Source: Haloplanus vescus (GTDB lineage Archaea > Halobacteriota > Halobacteria > Halobacteriales > Haloferacaceae). Taken from it: DNA of 64,000 nucleotides. A program made the translations under genes and the position numbers. Below the pieces are notes generated by a model. It made no database searches. It was not told where the DNA came from and worked only from the letters and a program-made list of their open reading frames with translations. Within the stretch, counting starts at the first letter, position 1. Each line of letters begins with the position of its first letter. The stretch is from contig NZ_FNQT01000001.1 of the NCBI RefSeq assembly GCF_900107665.1, positions 355,742 through 419,741 on the forward strand. The letters run 5' to 3'. This document shows positions 11,217-43,116 of the stretch, piece by piece.

Positions 11217-13061
11217 TCACTCGCCGTGTCGCGTCACGCAGGTCGACAGCCCCGTCAGCTCCACCGGTTCGGAGTTGTCCGGCGAGTAGACCACCATCTG
11301 GCCTTTCTCCATGTAGGGCACTTTGTCCTCGAGTTTCGGCGGGATGTTGACGCTCTTGATGGCGTCCTCGTCCCCGAGGTTGAGGACGAGTTTCGTGTTT
11401 ACCTGCTTGAACACCGAATCCGCGATGTCCTGTGGGTCCTGCGTGATGAGGAATAGGCCCAGTCGCTCCTTGCGGCCCTGTTTGGCCGCTTCGGTGAACT
11501 TCGTGATGACCTTCCGGGCCTGCACGCTCTCGGCGTCGGTGAGGAAGTTGTGGGCCTCGTCCATCCCCACGAGCAACGGCGTCTCCTTGATGCGGTCGTA
11601 CGTGGGGTCGTTCGACAGTTTCTCGTCGACGAGCAGACTGGCGACGGCGAGGACGACGAGTTCCGTCGCCCGCGAGTCGTTGACGTGGTACGTCGGGACG
11701 ACGGTCAGGCCGCCGGGCCGGACGAGTTCGTGAACGAGGTCGGTGACCGGGCGGGCGTCTTGGTCGAAGACACGACGGAACGCGCTCCCGAGGGCGCGCC
11801 GGCGCACGGCGTCGAACGTCGCCTCGTGGACGCGGCCCGCCTCGTCGAGTTCCTCGCGGAGCGCCGGGTCGTCGAGGTACGTCGTGAACTGGTCGTAGGT
11901 GGCGTCGGCGCCGTAGTCGTCGAAGAAACGCCCGAGGAGGTGGTCGAGCGCCTGATACTGATTGTCGTTGAGGCTGGCGCCCGCGACGAGCCATGGCCGG
12001 TGTCGGACCATGCTGAAGGGGATGGTGAAGGGCACCTGTTCGGCGCGGTGGTTGGCGCCGCCGTAGGACGCCCCCTCGATTTCGGGCGCGAACGCGATGG
12101 TGTCGTCGTGGCCGCCGTGGGCGATTCCCTCGCGGTCCAGTCGGCGCGCCGTCTCCTCGTCCATCGCGGGGTTGTCGTCGTGCATCTGGGCGTACTCGTC
12201 CTGCGGGTCGAACTGGACGACAGCCGTCGACACCTCGCGTCCGTCGTCCATCGGATACGTCGTATCGAGGTACTGTCGGAGGACGTTCTTCGAGGCGTGG
12301 GTCTTGCCCGACCCCGTGCCGCCTGCGACGAGCGTATGTCGGAAGACGAGAGGGTCGCCGTCGGCGTAGTCGTCTTTCAACCGGTAGTCGATGGTCGGCG
12401 GATTCGCCGCCGTCCGCACCGTCTCGCCACCTACCGAGAGGTGGCCGAGGAAGGTGCCGTCGCTCGGAATGGCGAGCCCAGTTTTGATTTGTTCGGCATC
12501 GGTCGCCTCACCCACGATGGCGCCGGGTTTCGGGACGCGGTCGACCATCCGTCGCTTGAGTTCGCTACCACCGGACTCCGTCCGGTTCTCCGAGGCGCTA
12601 CCCGCCTCGCCATCCTCGAACAGAACCGCAACCGGGTCGAGTTCGGCCACGAACTTGTAGTCGCGTTCGGTGAAGTCGTCGCGGCGCATCGCCCGCCGCG
12701 CGTGAATCTCTGTCGCGTCGTCGGCCTCGAACTCCTGATCGTATTCGAGCGCCGTGATGCGACAGAAGAGCGTCTCGCCGTCCGGATAGGGGACGAGGAG
12801 GTACTTCCCCAGACGGACGGACTCGCGGTTGTCGCTGGTGACGAAGGCCTTTAGCGCCGTGTCGTCGCCGTCCTCGGCCACCCGGAGGCCCTGCGAGACG
12901 GAGATAGAGCCGAGCCCTTGGTCCGTGCCGGTGGGCGAGACGTCGTAGGATTCGAAGTCGTCGATCGCGGACTCGGACGGCGGGTCGTCGCCGTCGTCGT
13001 CCGCGGAGAAGCCGGTGAAATCGCCGAGGTCGGACATGTCCGCTACCACGGGAGACTGCAT
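11217..13061 (-). CDS. herA: HerA-like hexameric DNA translocase/ATPase
   Basis: The 614-aa protein belongs to the HerA/FtsK-like ATPases that work with NurA in DNA end resection. An N-terminal acidic segment (1-50) precedes a HAS-barrel-like region (about 50-150). Walker A is GGTGSGKT (247-254); the post-Walker segment is VVQFDPQDEYAQ; Walker B is LLVGMDEAHNFL with D501/E502; the sensor region reads FLITQDPQDIAD. The frame is open further upstream, but codons there are a shadow of the DUF5305 gene. The start at 13061 is preferred; an in-frame ATG at 13037 is possible. The 22-bp gap suggests cotranscription with the upstream gene. NurA lies 5.8 kb away. Confidence 0.85.
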   Translation of the reverse strand: MQSPVVADMSDLGDFTGFSADDDGDDPPSESAIDDFESYDVSPTGTDQGLGSISVSQGLRVAEDGDDTALKAFVTSDNRESVRLGKYLLVPYPDGETLFCRITALEYDQEFEADDATEIHARRAMRRDDFTERDYKFVAELDPVAVLFEDGEAGSASENRTESGGSELKRRMVDRVPKPGAIVGEATDAEQIKTGLAIPSDGTFLGHLSVGGETVRTAANPPTIDYRLKDDYADGDPLVFRHTLVAGGTGSGKTHASKNVLRQYLDTTYPMDDGREVSTAVVQFDPQDEYAQMHDDNPAMDEETARRLDREGIAHGGHDDTIAFAPEIEGASYGGANHRAEQVPFTIPFSMVRHRPWLVAGASLNDNQYQALDHLLGRFFDDYGADATYDQFTTYLDDPALREELDEAGRVHEATFDAVRRRALGSAFRRVFDQDARPVTDLVHELVRPGGLTVVPTYHVNDSRATELVVLAVASLLVDEKLSNDPTYDRIKETPLLVGMDEAHNFLTDAESVQARKVITKFTEAAKQGRKERLGLFLITQDPQDIADSVFKQVNTKLVLNLGDEDAIKSVNIPPKLEDKVPYMEKGQMVVYSPDNSEPVELTGLSTCVTRHGE

Positions 13062-13083: not shown

Positions 13084-14211
13084 TCAGTCGTCGGCTTCGT
13101 CGCCCTCGCCGTCCTCGTCGAGCATCGCGTCGAGTCTGGGCGTCGGTGCCTCGTAGACGTACAGCAGCCCCTCGTGCGGGACGTAGAACGCCTCCCCGTC
13201 CGGGCGCTCGAAGACGCGCGCGTCGACGTCGATGGCCGTGTCGACCAGTCCGTCGAGCGAGTCGACGTCGACCCGCGGGCGGTTGAGGACCGTCGACGGG
13301 AGGCGGGCGGTCGTAATCCAGTCGTCGAACTCGTCGCGGGTGGATTCGAAGTCGAGTCGGTTGCGTTCGGCTTCCGAGACGGTGAATCGGTCGTCGTAGC
13401 GGCCGTAGGCGAGGCCGGCCACGCCGGCGAGTCCGAGCACCAACAGTACCGGCCCGCCAACCGTCCAGAGCGGGCCGTACGTTCGCTGACGGGTGAGCGT
13501 CTCGGTGGTCGAACCAGTCATCGCCTGCCCCTCAGTTGCGGCGGGCGAGTACGTCGACCCCTCGATGCCGATGGGGAGTCGATACGTCGCGGTTCGCTCC
13601 ACCTGCTGGCCGTTGACTTCGCCGTCCAGCGCCACCGTGTTGACGACCATGATCTGGACCGACCCCGGCGTTCCGCCGAGTCGCTCGCTGATGTTCGACG
13701 CTCGGACCGCTATCTGACTGACGTTCCGGGAGAACGTCGTCTGTACCGCTTCGCCGGAGGCGACGCCACTCGCCGTCGTGCCGCCGAGCGATTCCTCTAT
13801 TCGCCAGTATTCGGTCGTCGCCTCGTCTCCGTCGCCCCCGACAGACCGGATGACGAGCGTTTGCTGGACCGCCACGTCGGCCGTCCCGCCGCCGCTTGCC
13901 TGGTACTCGAAGGCGAACGTCCCGTCGAGTCGCGGGCTGACCGCCATGAAGTACGCGGGCCGGTCCGAGAGTTCGGTCCCCTGCGCGTAGAGCGGGTTGG
14001 GTTCGCTCACCGTCGCGGCAGTCGTGTAACTGCCGTTACCCTCCCAACTCGACACCTGTCGCTCCTCCGTCACGGTCCCCGGAGTCGCGTGTGCCGTATA
14101 CGCTGCGTATCCACCAATTCCGGCGATTACGACAGCAACCAGGGCAATCACCCAGAACCACTCGTCGATCACCGCACGACGCCGACCGTTGCGGTCTCCC
14201 CCCATCGGCAT
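13084..14211 (-). CDS. DUF5305-type membrane-anchored extracytoplasmic protein
   Basis: The 375-aa protein has a membrane segment near the N-terminus (about 18-42), a large beta-rich outside domain (about 45-245) and a second membrane segment (about 255-280; LWTVGGPVLLVLGLAGVAG), followed by a charged cytoplasmic tail. This is the layout of haloarchaeal DUF5305 proteins, which frequently accompany signal peptidase I. It lies 50 bp downstream of such a peptidase here. A role in processing or assembling surface proteins is inferred from the neighbourhood only. Confidence 0.7.
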   Translation of the reverse strand: MPMGGDRNGRRRAVIDEWFWVIALVAVVIAGIGGYAAYTAHATPGTVTEERQVSSWEGNGSYTTAATVSEPNPLYAQGTELSDRPAYFMAVSPRLDGTFAFEYQASGGGTADVAVQQTLVIRSVGGDGDEATTEYWRIEESLGGTTASGVASGEAVQTTFSRNVSQIAVRASNISERLGGTPGSVQIMVVNTVALDGEVNGQQVERTATYRLPIGIEGSTYSPAATEGQAMTGSTTETLTRQRTYGPLWTVGGPVLLVLGLAGVAGLAYGRYDDRFTVSEAERNRLDFESTRDEFDDWITTARLPSTVLNRPRVDVDSLDGLVDTAIDVDARVFERPDGEAFYVPHEGLLYVYEAPTPRLDAMLDEDGEGDEADD

Positions 14212-14261
14212 GGGAGGTCCATTTCCCGCGTGGGGTTATGAAGGTTGAGTCCCGACAGTTC

Positions 14262-15413
14262 TCAGCCAAACCGGTTCGCCAACCGGCGGAGCTTGGACGG
14301 GCCGCCGCGGGAACGGGTGCGGACGCGCTCACTCCCGATGAGCGACATCCCGAGGAGGTAGAGTGCACCCCCGAGCAACGCGTCGATGACGACGATTGGG
14401 AGCCACGGGTGGACCCGATAGAGGCCGTCGATGACCGGTTCGGGGAGGAGCGCGAGATAGCGGTATTCGACGAGATACCGGCGATAGTAACCCGTCTCTG
14501 GTGGTGCGTGGAGCGTCATCGTCGCGTTGGCAGTCGCTCGGCCACCCACGTAGACCGTCCCGGGAGCGACTTCGACGTCGTCGCTTCCGGGCTCTAAATA
14601 CACGTAGACGGGTATTAGCCCCGCGTTCGTGGCGGTGTAGTCAAGCGACGACGACTCGCCTTGAGGAATAGTCGTCGGCCTCTCGGAATCGAACTCGGCA
14701 CTGACGATGCCGTACTCCTGTGTCCCCGCAGGGACGACCATGGCAGCCGTGGCGGTGACGACCAACACGGCGGCGAAGCCTCCGACGAGGAGACGGGGTG
14801 AAATTCCCTCGTCGCGGTTCCGTGAGCGAGAGCGACCTCGTCCGCTCCCGTCGCTGGCGAGGATATCGAAGACGTACAGGAGCACCGACAACCCGAGGAG
14901 GATGTACATGAGACCTTGGGAACCGAGAAGCGAGCGAGTGCCCAGCAGCGCCGCGAGTCGAGTCTGTACGTCGCTGGCCGCCGTCTGAATGCCCATCACC
15001 GCAGTCCCAAGATTCGGAATGACGACGACTGACCCACCGGGCTGCCACGCCTTGGCGACGATCTGTGGGTCCTTGACGGGAGGTTCGTCGCCGTCTTGAT
15101 CGGTGAACGGGTTCGCGTCGCCGCGAGTGATGTATCCTCGCTCCGTCTCGCCGACCACACGGTGCGTGGTGAGGCCGCCACCGTGGAGTTGCTGGGCGCG
15201 GAAGACGATTACGTCACCCTCCTCGATATCGTCGTCGAGTGCCGTAGGGACTGCGACGAAGCCGTCGCCGGGGTTCAGCGTCGGCGCCATGCTACCGGTC
15301 TCGACGAAGCCGAGCAACACGGGGTAGCCGAGCACCTGTCCGGCGACGAGCGAAACGACGAAGACGATTGCGAGCACCTCCCCCCCTAACGTGACCGTTC
15401 GCCGTATCGACAT
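14262..15413 (-). CDS. Signal peptidase I (archaeal Sec11/SipW-like) with C-terminal extension
   Basis: The 383-aa membrane protease removes signal peptides outside the membrane. The catalytic Ser41 in ETGSMAPTL, His84 in TTHRVVG and Asp99 in RGDAN match the Ser-His-Asp type (Sec11, SipW) rather than the Ser-Lys bacterial type. A first membrane segment spans about 10-30; two more (about 165-185 and 210-230) lead into an Ig-like outside domain and a fourth segment near 345-365. The extension roughly doubles a minimal Sec11. It is transcribed toward DUF5305 and lies behind two DUF1102 genes, its likely dedicated substrates. Confidence 0.88.
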   Translation of the reverse strand: MSIRRTVTLGGEVLAIVFVVSLVAGQVLGYPVLLGFVETGSMAPTLNPGDGFVAVPTALDDDIEEGDVIVFRAQQLHGGGLTTHRVVGETERGYITRGDANPFTDQDGDEPPVKDPQIVAKAWQPGGSVVVIPNLGTAVMGIQTAASDVQTRLAALLGTRSLLGSQGLMYILLGLSVLLYVFDILASDGSGRGRSRSRNRDEGISPRLLVGGFAAVLVVTATAAMVVPAGTQEYGIVSAEFDSERPTTIPQGESSSLDYTATNAGLIPVYVYLEPGSDDVEVAPGTVYVGGRATANATMTLHAPPETGYYRRYLVEYRYLALLPEPVIDGLYRVHPWLPIVVIDALLGGALYLLGMSLIGSERVRTRSRGGPSKLRRLANRFG

Positions 15414-15559
15414 TCGAGTTATCGGGTTGATACGGTCAACAGGTAAAAAACCATCTCGGCGTCCGTGCGACGCTCACTGTCGGACCATCAACGGTCGCGT
15501 CATCGGACGATTGGGGAATGCAATAGGATATGGGAGGCGGGATTGCTTGTCTCCCGCTA

Positions 15560-15682
15560 CTATTCAGTGAACAGTTCTTCGAGTTCTTGATTGATGGCTT
15601 CTCGACTCACGTCTTGATCTGAGAGGTCGAATTCAGCGTCGACCATCTCCGCGTACGTACTCAGAGTGGGTTTTTCAGCCAT
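15560..15682 (-). CDS. 40-residue acidic protein in the surface-protein cluster
   Basis: The ORF encodes MAEKPTLSTYAEMVDAEFDL followed by 20 more residues ending in EELFTE. It has 9 Glu and 5 Asp against 2 basic residues, one probable amphipathic helix and no membrane segment or cysteine. It starts 3 bp after the stop of the DUF1102 gene at 15686, so the two are almost certainly cotranscribed and translationally coupled. Acidic composition and spacing argue that it is real. No family is recognised; a cytosolic chaperone or adaptor for the secreted proteins is only a guess. Confidence 0.6.
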   Translation of the reverse strand: MAEKPTLSTYAEMVDAEFDLSDQDVSREAINQELEELFTE

Positions 15683-15685
15683 AGT

Positions 15686-16342
15686 TTACACCTTATGTGC
15701 GGCGATGTTTAGCCGATCGTTAATACTCGTACTCCCGATGGAACTTTCCGGGAGCACGATTCCGAGGAGGCTGAACTTCAGCTTCTGTCCCGGGGAGAGA
15801 TTTTTGACGGCGATGAATCCAGTCGGGAATTTGACTTCGGTTTCACCAAGCCAAGGGAGATCGACTATCTTTGTCCCCCATTCCACGTCGACATTCTCAT
15901 CGGGGTTATCAGGAACAAGTAGCACAACTAATGCTCCTTCGAGATCCTCCGGGAAATCCGTTCCATTGATAGCAACATCCCCGTATGTGAGTGGTGACGC
16001 TGCCACTTCGAGGGTGTGCATACCCTGATTCTTGATTTCGAAGACGTCCGCGATGCTGGTAGTAGCGTTGGCGTTCAGGCCTTGACCACTAGCAATTCCA
16101 TCCCCTCGGTTTTTGTTGCTTCCCGTGAGATCGATCGCGAGTGCGTCGTCCGAAGTAGTGTCGACGTAGTTCCCGTTTTTGCCGTCCGTCGGCTGAATCC
16201 CGAGGTACGCGCTCGCGTCTCCAGCGACAGCCACATCGACGTTGCGCTGGGATTCGACGCTGTCGAACGCCCCCGTTCCCATAGTGGCCGCCCCTCCTCC
16301 CGCGAGCACGCCGAGGCTCGCAACGAATTGTCTACGATTCAT
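15686..16342 (-). CDS. DUF1102-family secreted protein (TasA/camelysin-like candidate)
   Basis: The 218-aa protein starts with a Tat-like signal, MNRRQFVASLGVLAGGG, and then GTGAFDSVESQRNVDVAVAG, the pattern of DUF1102 proteins in archaea. The rest is a beta-rich domain with VFEIKNQGMHTLEVAA. The hydrophobic C-terminus FSLLGIVLPESSIG is not a clear anchor. It is a paralogue of the next gene upstream (16359-16901), sharing VAGDASAYL and the D-V-F-x-I-x-N-Q-G core. With a Sec11/SipW-like peptidase downstream, the arrangement recalls TasA-SipW fibre loci of bacteria and TasA-like bundling pili of archaea; that role is inferred. Confidence 0.7.
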   Translation of the reverse strand: MNRRQFVASLGVLAGGGAATMGTGAFDSVESQRNVDVAVAGDASAYLGIQPTDGKNGNYVDTTSDDALAIDLTGSNKNRGDGIASGQGLNANATTSIADVFEIKNQGMHTLEVAASPLTYGDVAINGTDFPEDLEGALVVLLVPDNPDENVDVEWGTKIVDLPWLGETEVKFPTGFIAVKNLSPGQKLKFSLLGIVLPESSIGSTSINDRLNIAAHKV

Positions 16343-16358
16343 GTTCTGTTCCCCTCAG

Positions 16359-16901
16359 TTAGGTCGCGTCGGCGTTGAAGGTCACCGAATCGAGGAGCTT
16401 GTCGCCATCGCCCACGCTATCGCCTTCGGTGTCGATCTCGATACTAACCTTGGTGCTGGCACCCGTTCCCAGCGTGACATCGGTCGAACTGAGAGGAGAT
16501 CCGTCGTATGACTCGCCCTCGGGGTAGAATTTGACTAGGCTAGGGGCAGTTCCTCCCGTCTTCGACAGGCCGACGTTCACCTCTTGCGTGCCCTGATTCT
16601 CGATCGTGAAGACGTCATCCAGCTGCGTGACTGCGTCGGGGTTGACGCCGGTTCCTCCCTTGTCGGTTGAGTTGCTCGAATCGAGATCGATCGAGAGGGT
16701 GCTTCCGTTTCCGTCACTGGTGACGTAATGGGAGTTGTCTCCGCCAGTCCCCTCGAGTCGGAGGTACGCGGACGCGTCTCCGGCCACTTCGACATCGACG
16801 TTTCGCGTTGCCGTCACACTCGTAAACGCACCAGTACCAGTTGCAGCCGCCGCGCCGGCGGCGAGCGATCCCACACCAGCGATGAACTTTCGTCGTTGCA
16901 T
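16359..16901 (-). CDS. DUF1102-family secreted protein, first gene of the cluster
   Basis: The 180-aa paralogue of the 15686-16342 product has a twin-arginine signal MQRRKFIAGVGSLAAGAAAA and then GTGAFTSVTATRNVDVEVAG. The mature part is about 150 residues, beta-rich, with no cysteine and no C-terminal anchor, and contains DVFTIENQGTQEVNVGLS. Both paralogues share the same spacing between signal and core, which fits recognition by one peptidase. It is the promoter-proximal gene of the minus-strand unit, and its upstream region carries the phased repeat array at 16970-17067. A fibre subunit is the favoured inference; a soluble surface protein is the alternative. Confidence 0.7.
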   Translation of the reverse strand: MQRRKFIAGVGSLAAGAAAATGTGAFTSVTATRNVDVEVAGDASAYLRLEGTGGDNSHYVTSDGNGSTLSIDLDSSNSTDKGGTGVNPDAVTQLDDVFTIENQGTQEVNVGLSKTGGTAPSLVKFYPEGESYDGSPLSSTDVTLGTGASTKVSIEIDTEGDSVGDGDKLLDSVTFNADAT

Positions 16902-16969
16902 AGTCGTTCACGTGCCCCGTCTGGAGCACATCACACCCCTGAACCCCTACCCCGTTTGTAGTGAGCCGA

Positions 16970-17067
16970 TTGAAACCAGTACAACGGCGGATAGAACCGG
17001 TTCAACGAAGTGATTTCTCGGTTTCAACGGATACGAGATATCGGTTCAATCACACCTTGAGAACCGG
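16970..17067. promoter_or_regulatory. Phased GGTT(T)CAA repeat array in the divergent surface-protein promoter
   Basis: Within the 268-bp gap between the two divergent surface-protein units lie TTGAAACC (16970-16977, reverse orientation), CGGTTCAA (16998-17005), CGGTTTCAA (17019-17027) and CGGTTCAA (17042-17049), plus a GAACCGG half-site at 17061-17067. The forward copies start 21 and 23 bp apart, about two helical turns, so a protein could bind them on one DNA face. The neighbouring HTH protein (17170) is the first candidate binder. The rest of the gap shows only a TATA-like TTACTTATG at 17100-17108. Confidence 0.6.
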
Positions 17068-17169
17068 CTTGCCGCGCCTGAAGCCCCCGACACCACCGAT
17101 TACTTATGTGTGATTGTGCAGAGAGGTTAGACCGTCCCAGACGCGTTCAACTGGGGGGGCACGAACGAA

Positions 17170-17703
17170 ATGAATCTGGCACGAGACGACGTTTACGAGG
17201 TGTTGAGCAACCGGCGTCGGCGGTTCGTCCTACACTATCTTCGGGGGAACGGACCGCGGGCGGCGCTCGGAACGATTGCGGAACACGTCGCGGCGTGGGA
17301 GAACGACATCGATATCGCTGACGTGGGGTCGGACGCGCGAAAGAACGTCTACACATCGCTCCAGCAGTTCCACCTGCCGAAGATGGAGGAGCTGAATCTC
17401 GTCCGCTTCGACCAGCGGGCGGGTGAGGTGGAACTCACGGACGAGGCCGATAGTGTAGACGTATACCTAGAGGTCGTCGAGGGCCACGATGTACCCTGGA
17501 GCCTCTACTATCTCGGCATCGGTGGGCTAACCGGCGCAGTGACGCTGGGGCACGCGCTCGGGTTGCCGTTACTCTCCGGCCTCACTGAGGTCGGCTGTGC
17601 AGTCTTCACTGTCACTGCCATCGGCGCTCTGGCACTGATTCACACCTATTACACGCGGACGATGCGCCTCGGAACCGATGGAACACCGCCCGAAATCGAC
17701 TGA
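17170..17703 (+). CDS. Membrane-anchored winged-helix protein (DUF7344-like)
   Basis: The 177-aa protein has an N-terminal winged helix (about 5-95; DDVYEVLSNRRRRFVLHYL, then NVYTSLQQFHLPKMEEL), the standard form of haloarchaeal DUF7344 DNA-binding modules. Two hydrophobic segments follow (about 113-135 and 138-160; WSLYYLGIGGLTGAVTLG and CAVFTVTAIGALALI). A DNA-binding domain tethered to the membrane could link surface-protein export to transcription. It is divergent from the DUF1102 unit across the repeat array and overlaps the next secreted-protein gene by 1 bp (TGATG). Confidence 0.75.
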   Translation: MNLARDDVYEVLSNRRRRFVLHYLRGNGPRAALGTIAEHVAAWENDIDIADVGSDARKNVYTSLQQFHLPKMEELNLVRFDQRAGEVELTDEADSVDVYLEVVEGHDVPWSLYYLGIGGLTGAVTLGHALGLPLLSGLTEVGCAVFTVTAIGALALIHTYYTRTMRLGTDGTPPEID

Positions 17704-18395
17704 TGAGTCATCGAACTCGACGGATAGTCGCGGTGTTCGCACTCTGTGTAGCCGTGAGTCTGTCTTTCGGTGTCGGAAGCTTCTCTTCGGCATCTGCGGA
17801 ACGGGGTGTGAACGTGACCGTCGTCGAGAACGAAAATGCGTATCTCAGCTTTGACAGAGGCCTTCGGTGTGGCCCCGGCCGTAGCGCTGGAAGGAGCCAA
17901 TCCATCGTCCACAACCAGTTCGGATCGAAGATTACCCACGTCGAGATGCAGGTTACAGCTCTCGACGGCCACGCCCGCGTCAGGGCGGCCGAAACCCCGC
18001 ACGCTGGTGGGTCCAAATCGTTGGGACCGGCGGATTCGACCCGTATCGTGTTCGACGATACGTACCAACCCGGAGAAAGCATCGACCTGGAGGTATCCGG
18101 ACCAGCAGGCCTCGGAAACAAGACCGGTGCCTATGAACTCCAGATAAAAATCTTAGAAGCCACGGGACCGGGTATCCGAGTCACGGACACGATCAAGACG
18201 TACACGGTGAGGTGTCCTGGTCAAAAGAGTTCCACAGCACAGGGAGACGAAGACAGCGGCAGCGATGAAGAAGAAGAGAACAGTAGCGGCGGCAACGGCA
18301 ACAACGGAAACGGAAACGGCAACAACGGCAACGGTAACAACGGTAACAACGGCAACGGAAACAGCAACGGTAACGGCAACGGCAACGGAGATTGA
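17703..18395 (+). CDS. DUF1102-like secreted protein with Asn-Gly tail
   Basis: The 230-aa protein has a Sec-type signal (about 1-32) and then ERGVNVTVVENENAYLSF, which aligns with the VDVAVAGDASAYLGI region of the two DUF1102 proteins across the promoter. The domain (about 33-175) carries two cysteines (C56 and one near C173). An acidic stretch (about 176-192) leads into a tail of roughly 38 residues made almost only of Asn and Gly. Such a tail is unusual in this acidic proteome and could be a flexible stalk or self-association segment. It is coupled to the HTH gene upstream. Confidence 0.72.
   Translation: MSHRTRRIVAVFALCVAVSLSFGVGSFSSASAERGVNVTVVENENAYLSFDRGLRCGPGRSAGRSQSIVHNQFGSKITHVEMQVTALDGHARVRAAETPHAGGSKSLGPADSTRIVFDDTYQPGESIDLEVSGPAGLGNKTGAYELQIKILEATGPGIRVTDTIKTYTVRCPGQKSSTAQGDEDSGSDEEEENSSGGNGNNGNGNGNNGNGNNGNNGNGNSNGNGNGNGD
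18288..18389 (+). repeat. Low-complexity Asn-Gly codon repeat
   Basis: A run of GGCAAC, GGAAAC and AACGGC/AACGGT units repeats about 17 times inside the 3' end of the secreted-protein gene. Codon usage within the units varies (GGC, GGA, GGT), so the protein sequence rather than the DNA repeat appears maintained. It is not a CRISPR or an intergenic satellite. Confidence 0.8.
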
Positions 18396-42923: not shown

Positions 42924-43007
42924 GGTGGGATGGCAGAGCGGCCTATTGCGCCTGCCTTGAAAGCAGGTAGCCTCACGGCTTCCTGGGTTCGAATCCCAGT
43001 CCCACCG
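42924..43007 (+). tRNA. tRNA-Ser (anticodon TGA)
   Basis: The cloverleaf is complete: acceptor GGTGGGA/TCCCACC, D-arm beginning TGGCAGAG, anticodon stem CCTGC/GCAGG with loop CTTGAAA giving TGA, class II variable arm, T-loop TTCGAAT and discriminator G. The length is 84 nt. Its 3' end is repeated 108 bp downstream, marking it as an integration target. Confidence 0.95.
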
Positions 43008-43116
43008 CTTCTCCGCGAACACTAGTGAGCGGAGAGCGACCGCTGTGGTTCGAATCAGGGAGTGACGCGAACGGACGTGAGCGAAACGACCGTGGTTCGA
43101 ATCCCAGTCCCACCGC
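42986..43116 (+). repeat. Direct repeat of the tRNA-Ser 3' end (putative att pair)
   Basis: Twenty-three bases ending the tRNA gene (42986-43008, starting GGTTCGAATCCCAG) occur again without change at 43094-43116. A third partial copy, GTGGTTCGAATC, lies near 43044-43055. Tyrosine integrases of haloarchaeal viruses and plasmids typically use tRNA 3' ends and leave such duplicates. The 85 bp between the full copies hold no gene, so this looks like a scar or stacked insertion remnants. Confidence 0.7.

Follow-up and report, generated by a model that had tools for sequence, protein, structure and literature searches.

A probable tafi-type pilus locus in Haloplanus vescus, with a predicted PapD-like domain on its signal peptidase

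A locus at positions 13084-18395 of a 64,000-nt stretch of the Haloplanus vescus genome (2.78 Mb, 10 contigs), hereafter called the window, probably encodes a pilus whose subunits would be exported by the twin-arginine translocation (Tat) pathway and polymerised by donor-strand exchange. It would be a diverged variant of the Tat-fimbriae (tafi) described in haloarchaea (Galeva et al. 2025, iScience 28:111793, as reported in PMC12687288). Among 292 sampled haloarchaeal genomes, TafA is found above its cut-off in 22, and homologues of Pil1, the candidate main pilin of the window, in 224. The locus would thus extend tafi-type pili from a TafA-bearing minority to a far more common form.

Subunits and gene content of the locus

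Two adjacent reverse-strand genes, Pil1 (16359-16901, 180 amino acids) and Pil2 (15686-16342, 218 amino acids), encode proteins that match the chain of Protein Data Bank entry 9P0A, 'Natrinema sp. J7-2 Tafi pilus', with phmmer E-values of 7.6e-13 and 7.3e-13, respectively; the profile of the subunit family matches the same chain at 1e-31. No publication describing this Natrinema structure turned up in a literature search. For Pil1, the fold is presumed from this homology. For Pil2 we built a model that reads through into the small open reading frame (sORF) downstream, signal peptide included, from a multiple sequence alignment of 68 rows. A Foldseek search with this model returned 9P0A first (E 1e-6), the Pyrobaculum bundling pili (7UEG) second (E 1.6e-4), then a Sulfolobus thread (7PNB), followed largely by Fim/Pap-type subunits, Csu among them; no TasA entry was present among its top 50 matches. 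A sequence-only reading of this DNA had proposed a fibre fold of the TasA/AbpA kind, of which the archaeal part stands and the TasA part does not. That reading had also described three DUF1102-like paralogues. The word paralogues is fair, since all three subunits match TafE weakly, but only Pil1 passes the DUF1102 cut-off (25.4 bits, cut-off 22.2), and the Pfam search gave no match for Pil2 or Pil3.

An alignment of the signal and arm regions of 225 distinct subunits gave the consensus M-x-R-R-K-F ... G-T-G-A-F-T-S-V-x-A-x-R-x-V-x-V-x-V. The twin-arginine pair is found in 202 of them and is present in Pil1 (MQRRKF) and Pil2 (MNRRQF), both of which carry GTGA followed by F. Each residue of the GAF motif is at least 95% conserved, and valines alternate at positions +12, +14 and +16, forming a conserved N-terminal arm after the signal region. 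In the Pil2 monomer model, residues 26 to 46 are mostly without strand and the arm is unpaired, which is what a donor arm lacking its acceptor would show. Of the 215 residues in the 9P0A chain, whose Met is at position 3, the structure library represents 188. If all 27 missing residues belong to the N-terminus, the Phe of GAF is the first residue of the modelled chain, which would place the cleavage between A25 and F26 in Pil1 and Pil2.

The third subunit, Pil3 (17703-18395, forward strand, 230 amino acids), is TafC-like and predicted to be secreted, with a Gly/Asn-rich tail; comparison of its family profile with that of TafC gave a probability of 98.8 (E 6e-17), and its gene occupies the position of TafC, behind the gene for a helix-turn-helix (HTH) protein. 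Weakly hydrophobic signals are expected of the Tat pathway and hydrophobic ones of the general secretory (Sec) pathway. The signals of Pil1 and Pil2 have no strongly hydrophobic segment and therefore fit the Tat type, whereas that of Pil3 has one and fits the Sec type. The fold matches and the conserved arm support placing the subunits with donor-strand pili.

The remaining genes complete two divergent units. Downstream of Pil2 on the reverse strand are the sORF (15560-15682, 40 amino acids), a SipW-like archaeal type I signal peptidase (14262-15413, 383 amino acids; TIGR02228, 57.1 bits, cut-off 51.85) and a DUF5305 protein (13084-14211, 375 amino acids; PF17231, 176.8 bits, cut-off 29) with hydrophobic segments at residues 19-37 and 250-268. 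The DUF5305 protein is a candidate anchor or terminator of the fibre, and tafi loci have one as well. On the forward strand lies a DUF7344 winged-helix HTH protein (17170-17703; PF24035, 99 bits) with a C-terminal hydrophobic region, likely a local regulator, whose stop codon is overlapped by the start of Pil3. Read along the longer unit, the order is Pil1, Pil2, sORF, peptidase and DUF5305, with HTH and Pil3 diverging from it. The sequence-only reading had given the same open reading frames and divergent units, and its DUF5305 protein, Ser-His-Asp peptidase with an Ig-like extension, membrane-tethered HTH protein and 40-amino-acid gene all held up. A whole-genome search found one peptidase, one DUF5305 protein and three subunits, so that the locus is the sole system of its kind in this Haloplanus.

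The layout recurs in haloarchaea. Reference genomes were scanned with the peptidase alone, which yielded 80 named loci, 63 of them full-length (with enough flank) and used for counts. At least two subunits were present in all 63, DUF5305 in 61 and the HTH gene in 60, with all three in 58; the DUF5305 gene was less than 400 bp from the peptidase gene in 58. This co-occurrence of HTH, DUF5305 and pilins with the peptidase exceeds chance. The commonest arrangement is a variable number of pilin genes followed by the peptidase and DUF5305, diverging from HTH and Pil3. Some loci of the Natrinema/Natribaculum type also carry a conserved 140-amino-acid protein between the sORF and the peptidase (L040, 9311-9733; L045, 6207-6629; L181, 9210-9632). 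A HerA-like ATPase gene (11217-13040) was considered as a further member of the locus and set aside as a neighbour, as it adjoins only 2 of the 63 loci, both from Haloplanus; the examined loci from Haloplanus have it alongside, and those of other genera do not.

Published-type tafi loci were defined by TafA, TafC, TafE and TafF above their NCBIfam cut-offs, as is the case for all four in L098, and loci L098-L109 were compared with the window. They have the same peptidase, DUF7344 HTH protein and DUF5305 protein. The suggestion in the sequence-only reading that the system is undescribed is not supported: haloarchaeal tafi, as PMC12687288 reports them, use the same kit. The window nevertheless differs in its subunits. 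Against the TafE model (cut-off 155), Pil1, Pil2 and Pil3 score 68.8, 58.6 and 28.9 bits, all well below; the three also match TafA (NF052520, cut-off 190) far too weakly, with a best window score of 40.4 bits, from the N-terminus alone, and the best score for the TafC model is 17 bits (cut-off 410), a family that Pil3 reaches only through the comparison of profiles. No TafA match at E 1e-20 was found anywhere in the genome, nor any TafF match in a search that gave 581.7 bits in a control genome. Since both are absent, the window holds a tafi-type system rather than a TafA-type tafi; it is a diverged sister of the published loci.

The signal peptidase and its external domain

Ser41, His84, Asp99 and Asp105 of the peptidase are invariant among 22 homologues. 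From its hydrophobic segments, the protein consists of a first transmembrane segment (TM1), the catalytic domain, TM2, an Arg-rich loop, TM3, an external beta-sandwich, TM4 and a basic tail; the catalytic domain and the beta-sandwich would thus share the outer face of the membrane, and the Arg-rich TM2-TM3 loop would lie inside. The beta-sandwich (residues 226-332, 14418-14738, reverse strand) is predicted with confidence by AlphaFold2, with a predicted local distance difference test (pLDDT) score of 94.2. Its top Foldseek matches belong almost all to the MSP/PapD-like class, with MSP/VAP and CEP192 PapD-like domains, and FixG too; the pilus chaperones CupB2, YadV, Caf1M and FaeE are among them. 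By sequence, the Pfam PapD-like domain Cep192_D3 matches 20 of 67 peptidase homologues (best E 4.6e-6), and ASH and others were matched too. We are confident in assigning the predicted fold to the PapD-like (MSP/ASH) superfamily, the fold class of the chaperones of chaperone-usher systems, an assignment that is new here.

Mean identity to the window is 57% for the extension and 70% for the catalytic part, with 52% and 49% for the other non-catalytic parts, and the extension is kept in tafi and non-tafi loci alike. The PapD-like fold suggests that peptidase and assembly chaperone may be combined in one protein. Judging by fold class and context, a role as assembly chaperone is possible, although we hold it to be somewhat less than an even proposition. 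A literature search found no paper combining signal peptidase, PapD-like domain and archaea.

Subunit exchange, the companion gene and the divergent promoter

The genes of the window do not share a single affinity. Its HTH protein (73-81% identity), DUF5305 protein (57-70%) and HerA-like neighbour (84-86%) are closest to those of Haloplanus loci at the same site, and its peptidase clusters with Haloplanus in the tree (Shimodaira-Hasegawa-like approximate likelihood ratio test support of 92, inside a starred clade). In contrast, Pil1, Pil2 and the sORF are closest to those of Haloarchaeobius, genome G127 and an unlinked copy in Haloplanus ruber; in the subunit tree, Pil1 falls in a starred clade made up of other genera and the H. 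ruber copy, separate from the subunits that Haloplanus loci carry at this site. The remaining Haloplanus loci have different subunits and, in the place of TafF, a secreted gene of about 500 amino acids without a TafF match. At a site common to Haloplanus, a Pil1-Pil2-sORF cassette has replaced the subunit genes, a finding reported here for the first time, and the assembly machinery was kept. Phage pressure on surface fibres would be expected to favour such exchange of subunit cassettes at a fixed assembly locus. The H. ruber cassette itself (L037, 7778-9041) has no peptidase or HTH gene nearby, and its products are presumably processed in trans.

The sORF is found in 24 of 391 haloarchaeal genomes, from 11 genera and four families, in one copy each, and its rate of non-synonymous substitution (dN, 0-0.28) is well below that of synonymous substitution (dS, 0.08-1.4). 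This conservation indicates a real coding gene placed right behind Pil2, which is likewise new here. In the window it is in frame with Pil2 and starts 3 nt past the stop codon of that gene, and in all loci where the gap was measured its start lies between -4 and +7 nt from that stop. One locus (L049, 7303-8064) has the sORF fused in frame to Pil2 without a start codon of its own, a single instance that may be a sequencing indel; in L050, L051 and L123, Pil2 is short (179-181 amino acids) and the sORF is absent. The protein is acidic, without signal peptide or transmembrane segment, and forms two helices in the Pil2 read-through model. A function as donor-strand mimic, prompted by the comparison of VEFDLSD with VDVEVAGD, was considered and is not favoured because of these two predicted helices.

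The divergent promoter region (16902-17169) contains a copy of the element TTCAGGC/GCCTGAA at 17076-17082, and no simple repeats were found in it. Of 84 non-redundant divergent regions, 35 contain this element, and shuffled sequences gave a mean of 2.3 and a maximum of 6; its recurrence in the divergent promoter is new here. The simplest reading is that it is a putative binding site of the HTH protein.

Elsewhere in the window, a tRNA-Ser gene (42924-43008) is followed 86 bp downstream by a 23-bp copy of its 3' end (43094-43116). A stretch of low G+C content surrounds the copy, free of called genes up to 44177; the arrangement resembles an old integration site.

Assembly, alternatives and known systems

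We propose the following scheme. Pil1 and Pil2 would fold in the cytoplasm and leave via the Tat pathway, after which the dedicated SipW-like peptidase would cut them between GTGA and F. The freed N-terminal arm (FTSVTATRNVDVEV in Pil1) would complete the sheet of the next subunit, and the external PapD-like domain may keep cut subunits until assembly, making the enzyme a membrane-tethered peptidase-chaperone. The DUF5305 protein and the TafC-like Pil3 would act at the membrane base or at the tip, the HTH protein would control the divergent promoter, and the 40-amino-acid protein would be a Pil2-specific helper. A chaperone-like domain on the very enzyme that frees the donor strand is a possible answer to the question of how Tat-exported, pre-folded subunits avoid early polymerisation. 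In its strongest form, the fused protein would cut the folded subunit and hold it at once by donor-strand complementation, a chaperone-usher-like step in a one-membrane archaeon without usher, with a signal-less 40-residue partner accompanying one subunit in this variant; taken as a whole, we regard this form as rather unlikely.

Several points weigh against the scheme. TafA and TafF are absent from the genome, so that the composition of the filament must differ from that of published tafi. The Pil2 model, in which the signal peptide was left on and the sORF read through, is of moderate quality (pLDDT 70, predicted template-modelling score 0.62), and its fold matches have low TM-scores. The individual fold matches of the peptidase extension are weak (E 2.6e-3 to 5e-2), and the PapD-like fold serves many uses. 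Finally, the sORF is predicted as helices, not as a donor strand.

Could the subunits be something other than a tafi-type pilus? In Bacillus, the TasA-TapA-SipW system has a dedicated SipW-type peptidase and donor-strand fibres of which the mature chain begins with Phe, and it uses the Sec route. The window follows the same logic, with its own dedicated peptidase, small beta-rich subunits and a cut before a Phe-led arm, and its peptidase weakly matches the Bacillus SipW equivalog NF046067 (29.8 bits); the subunits might thus form a biofilm matrix fibre homologous to TasA. However, this score is far under the cut-off of 190, the leading fold matches are archaeal, and the signals carry twin arginines. 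As the signals are of Tat type and the top 50 fold matches contain no TasA, the closest relative is tafi, and we find homology to the Bacillus fibre very improbable. Only slightly less improbable is that the secreted proteins are monomeric or bound to the surface layer and do not polymerise. The lack of a TafA orthologue and of TafF would agree with this, but the alternating-valine arm is conserved, the subunits match one from a solved pilus, and their genes are closely linked with this shared set of peptidase, HTH protein and DUF5305 protein.

Two steps of the preferred tafi-type scheme have alternatives of their own. The peptidase extension may, with about equal chances, be a generic Ig-like domain for anchoring or interaction without chaperone role: domains of the MSP/ASH type have many functions, and both its fold and its sequence matches extend well beyond chaperones. 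On the other side, it sits in a donor-strand pilus system that has this one peptidase and no other, and it persists whether or not the locus is of tafi type. As to the 40-amino-acid protein, its acidic, helical nature and its lack of export or membrane signals would also suit a cytoplasmic regulator unconnected with subunit export. We consider this doubtful, given the position of its start at the Pil2 stop, the one in-frame fusion, and the fact that it travels with the subunit genes and not with HTH. That it aids Pil2, as a specific export or folding helper, is our preferred guess, which we hold to be somewhat the likelier.

Compared with known systems, the window most resembles the published tafi, with which it shares Tat-type subunits bearing GAF and homologous to the solved 9P0A pilus, a SipW-like peptidase with the same extension, a DUF7344 HTH gene followed by a TafC-like gene, and DUF5305. 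It differs from them in having neither TafA above cut-off nor TafF, in subunits that reach at most 69 bits against TafE, in the additional 40-amino-acid gene and in its own gene order. The AbpA bundling pili of Pyrobaculum calidifontis (7UEG) are the second-best fold match of Pil2, but with 11% identity in the fold alignment, and sequence searches missed them. A dedicated SipW-type peptidase is common to the window and to Bacillus TasA-TapA-SipW, from which the window is set apart by a peptidase below the SipW cut-off and by subunits whose fold matches do not include TasA among the first 50; to our knowledge, Bacillus SipW has no PapD-like extension. With chaperone-usher pili (Fim, Pap, Caf, Csu), the window shares the fold class of the subunits and a PapD-like domain in its assembly enzyme. 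There is a single membrane and no usher, however, and its chaperone-like domain is not free but fused to the signal peptidase.

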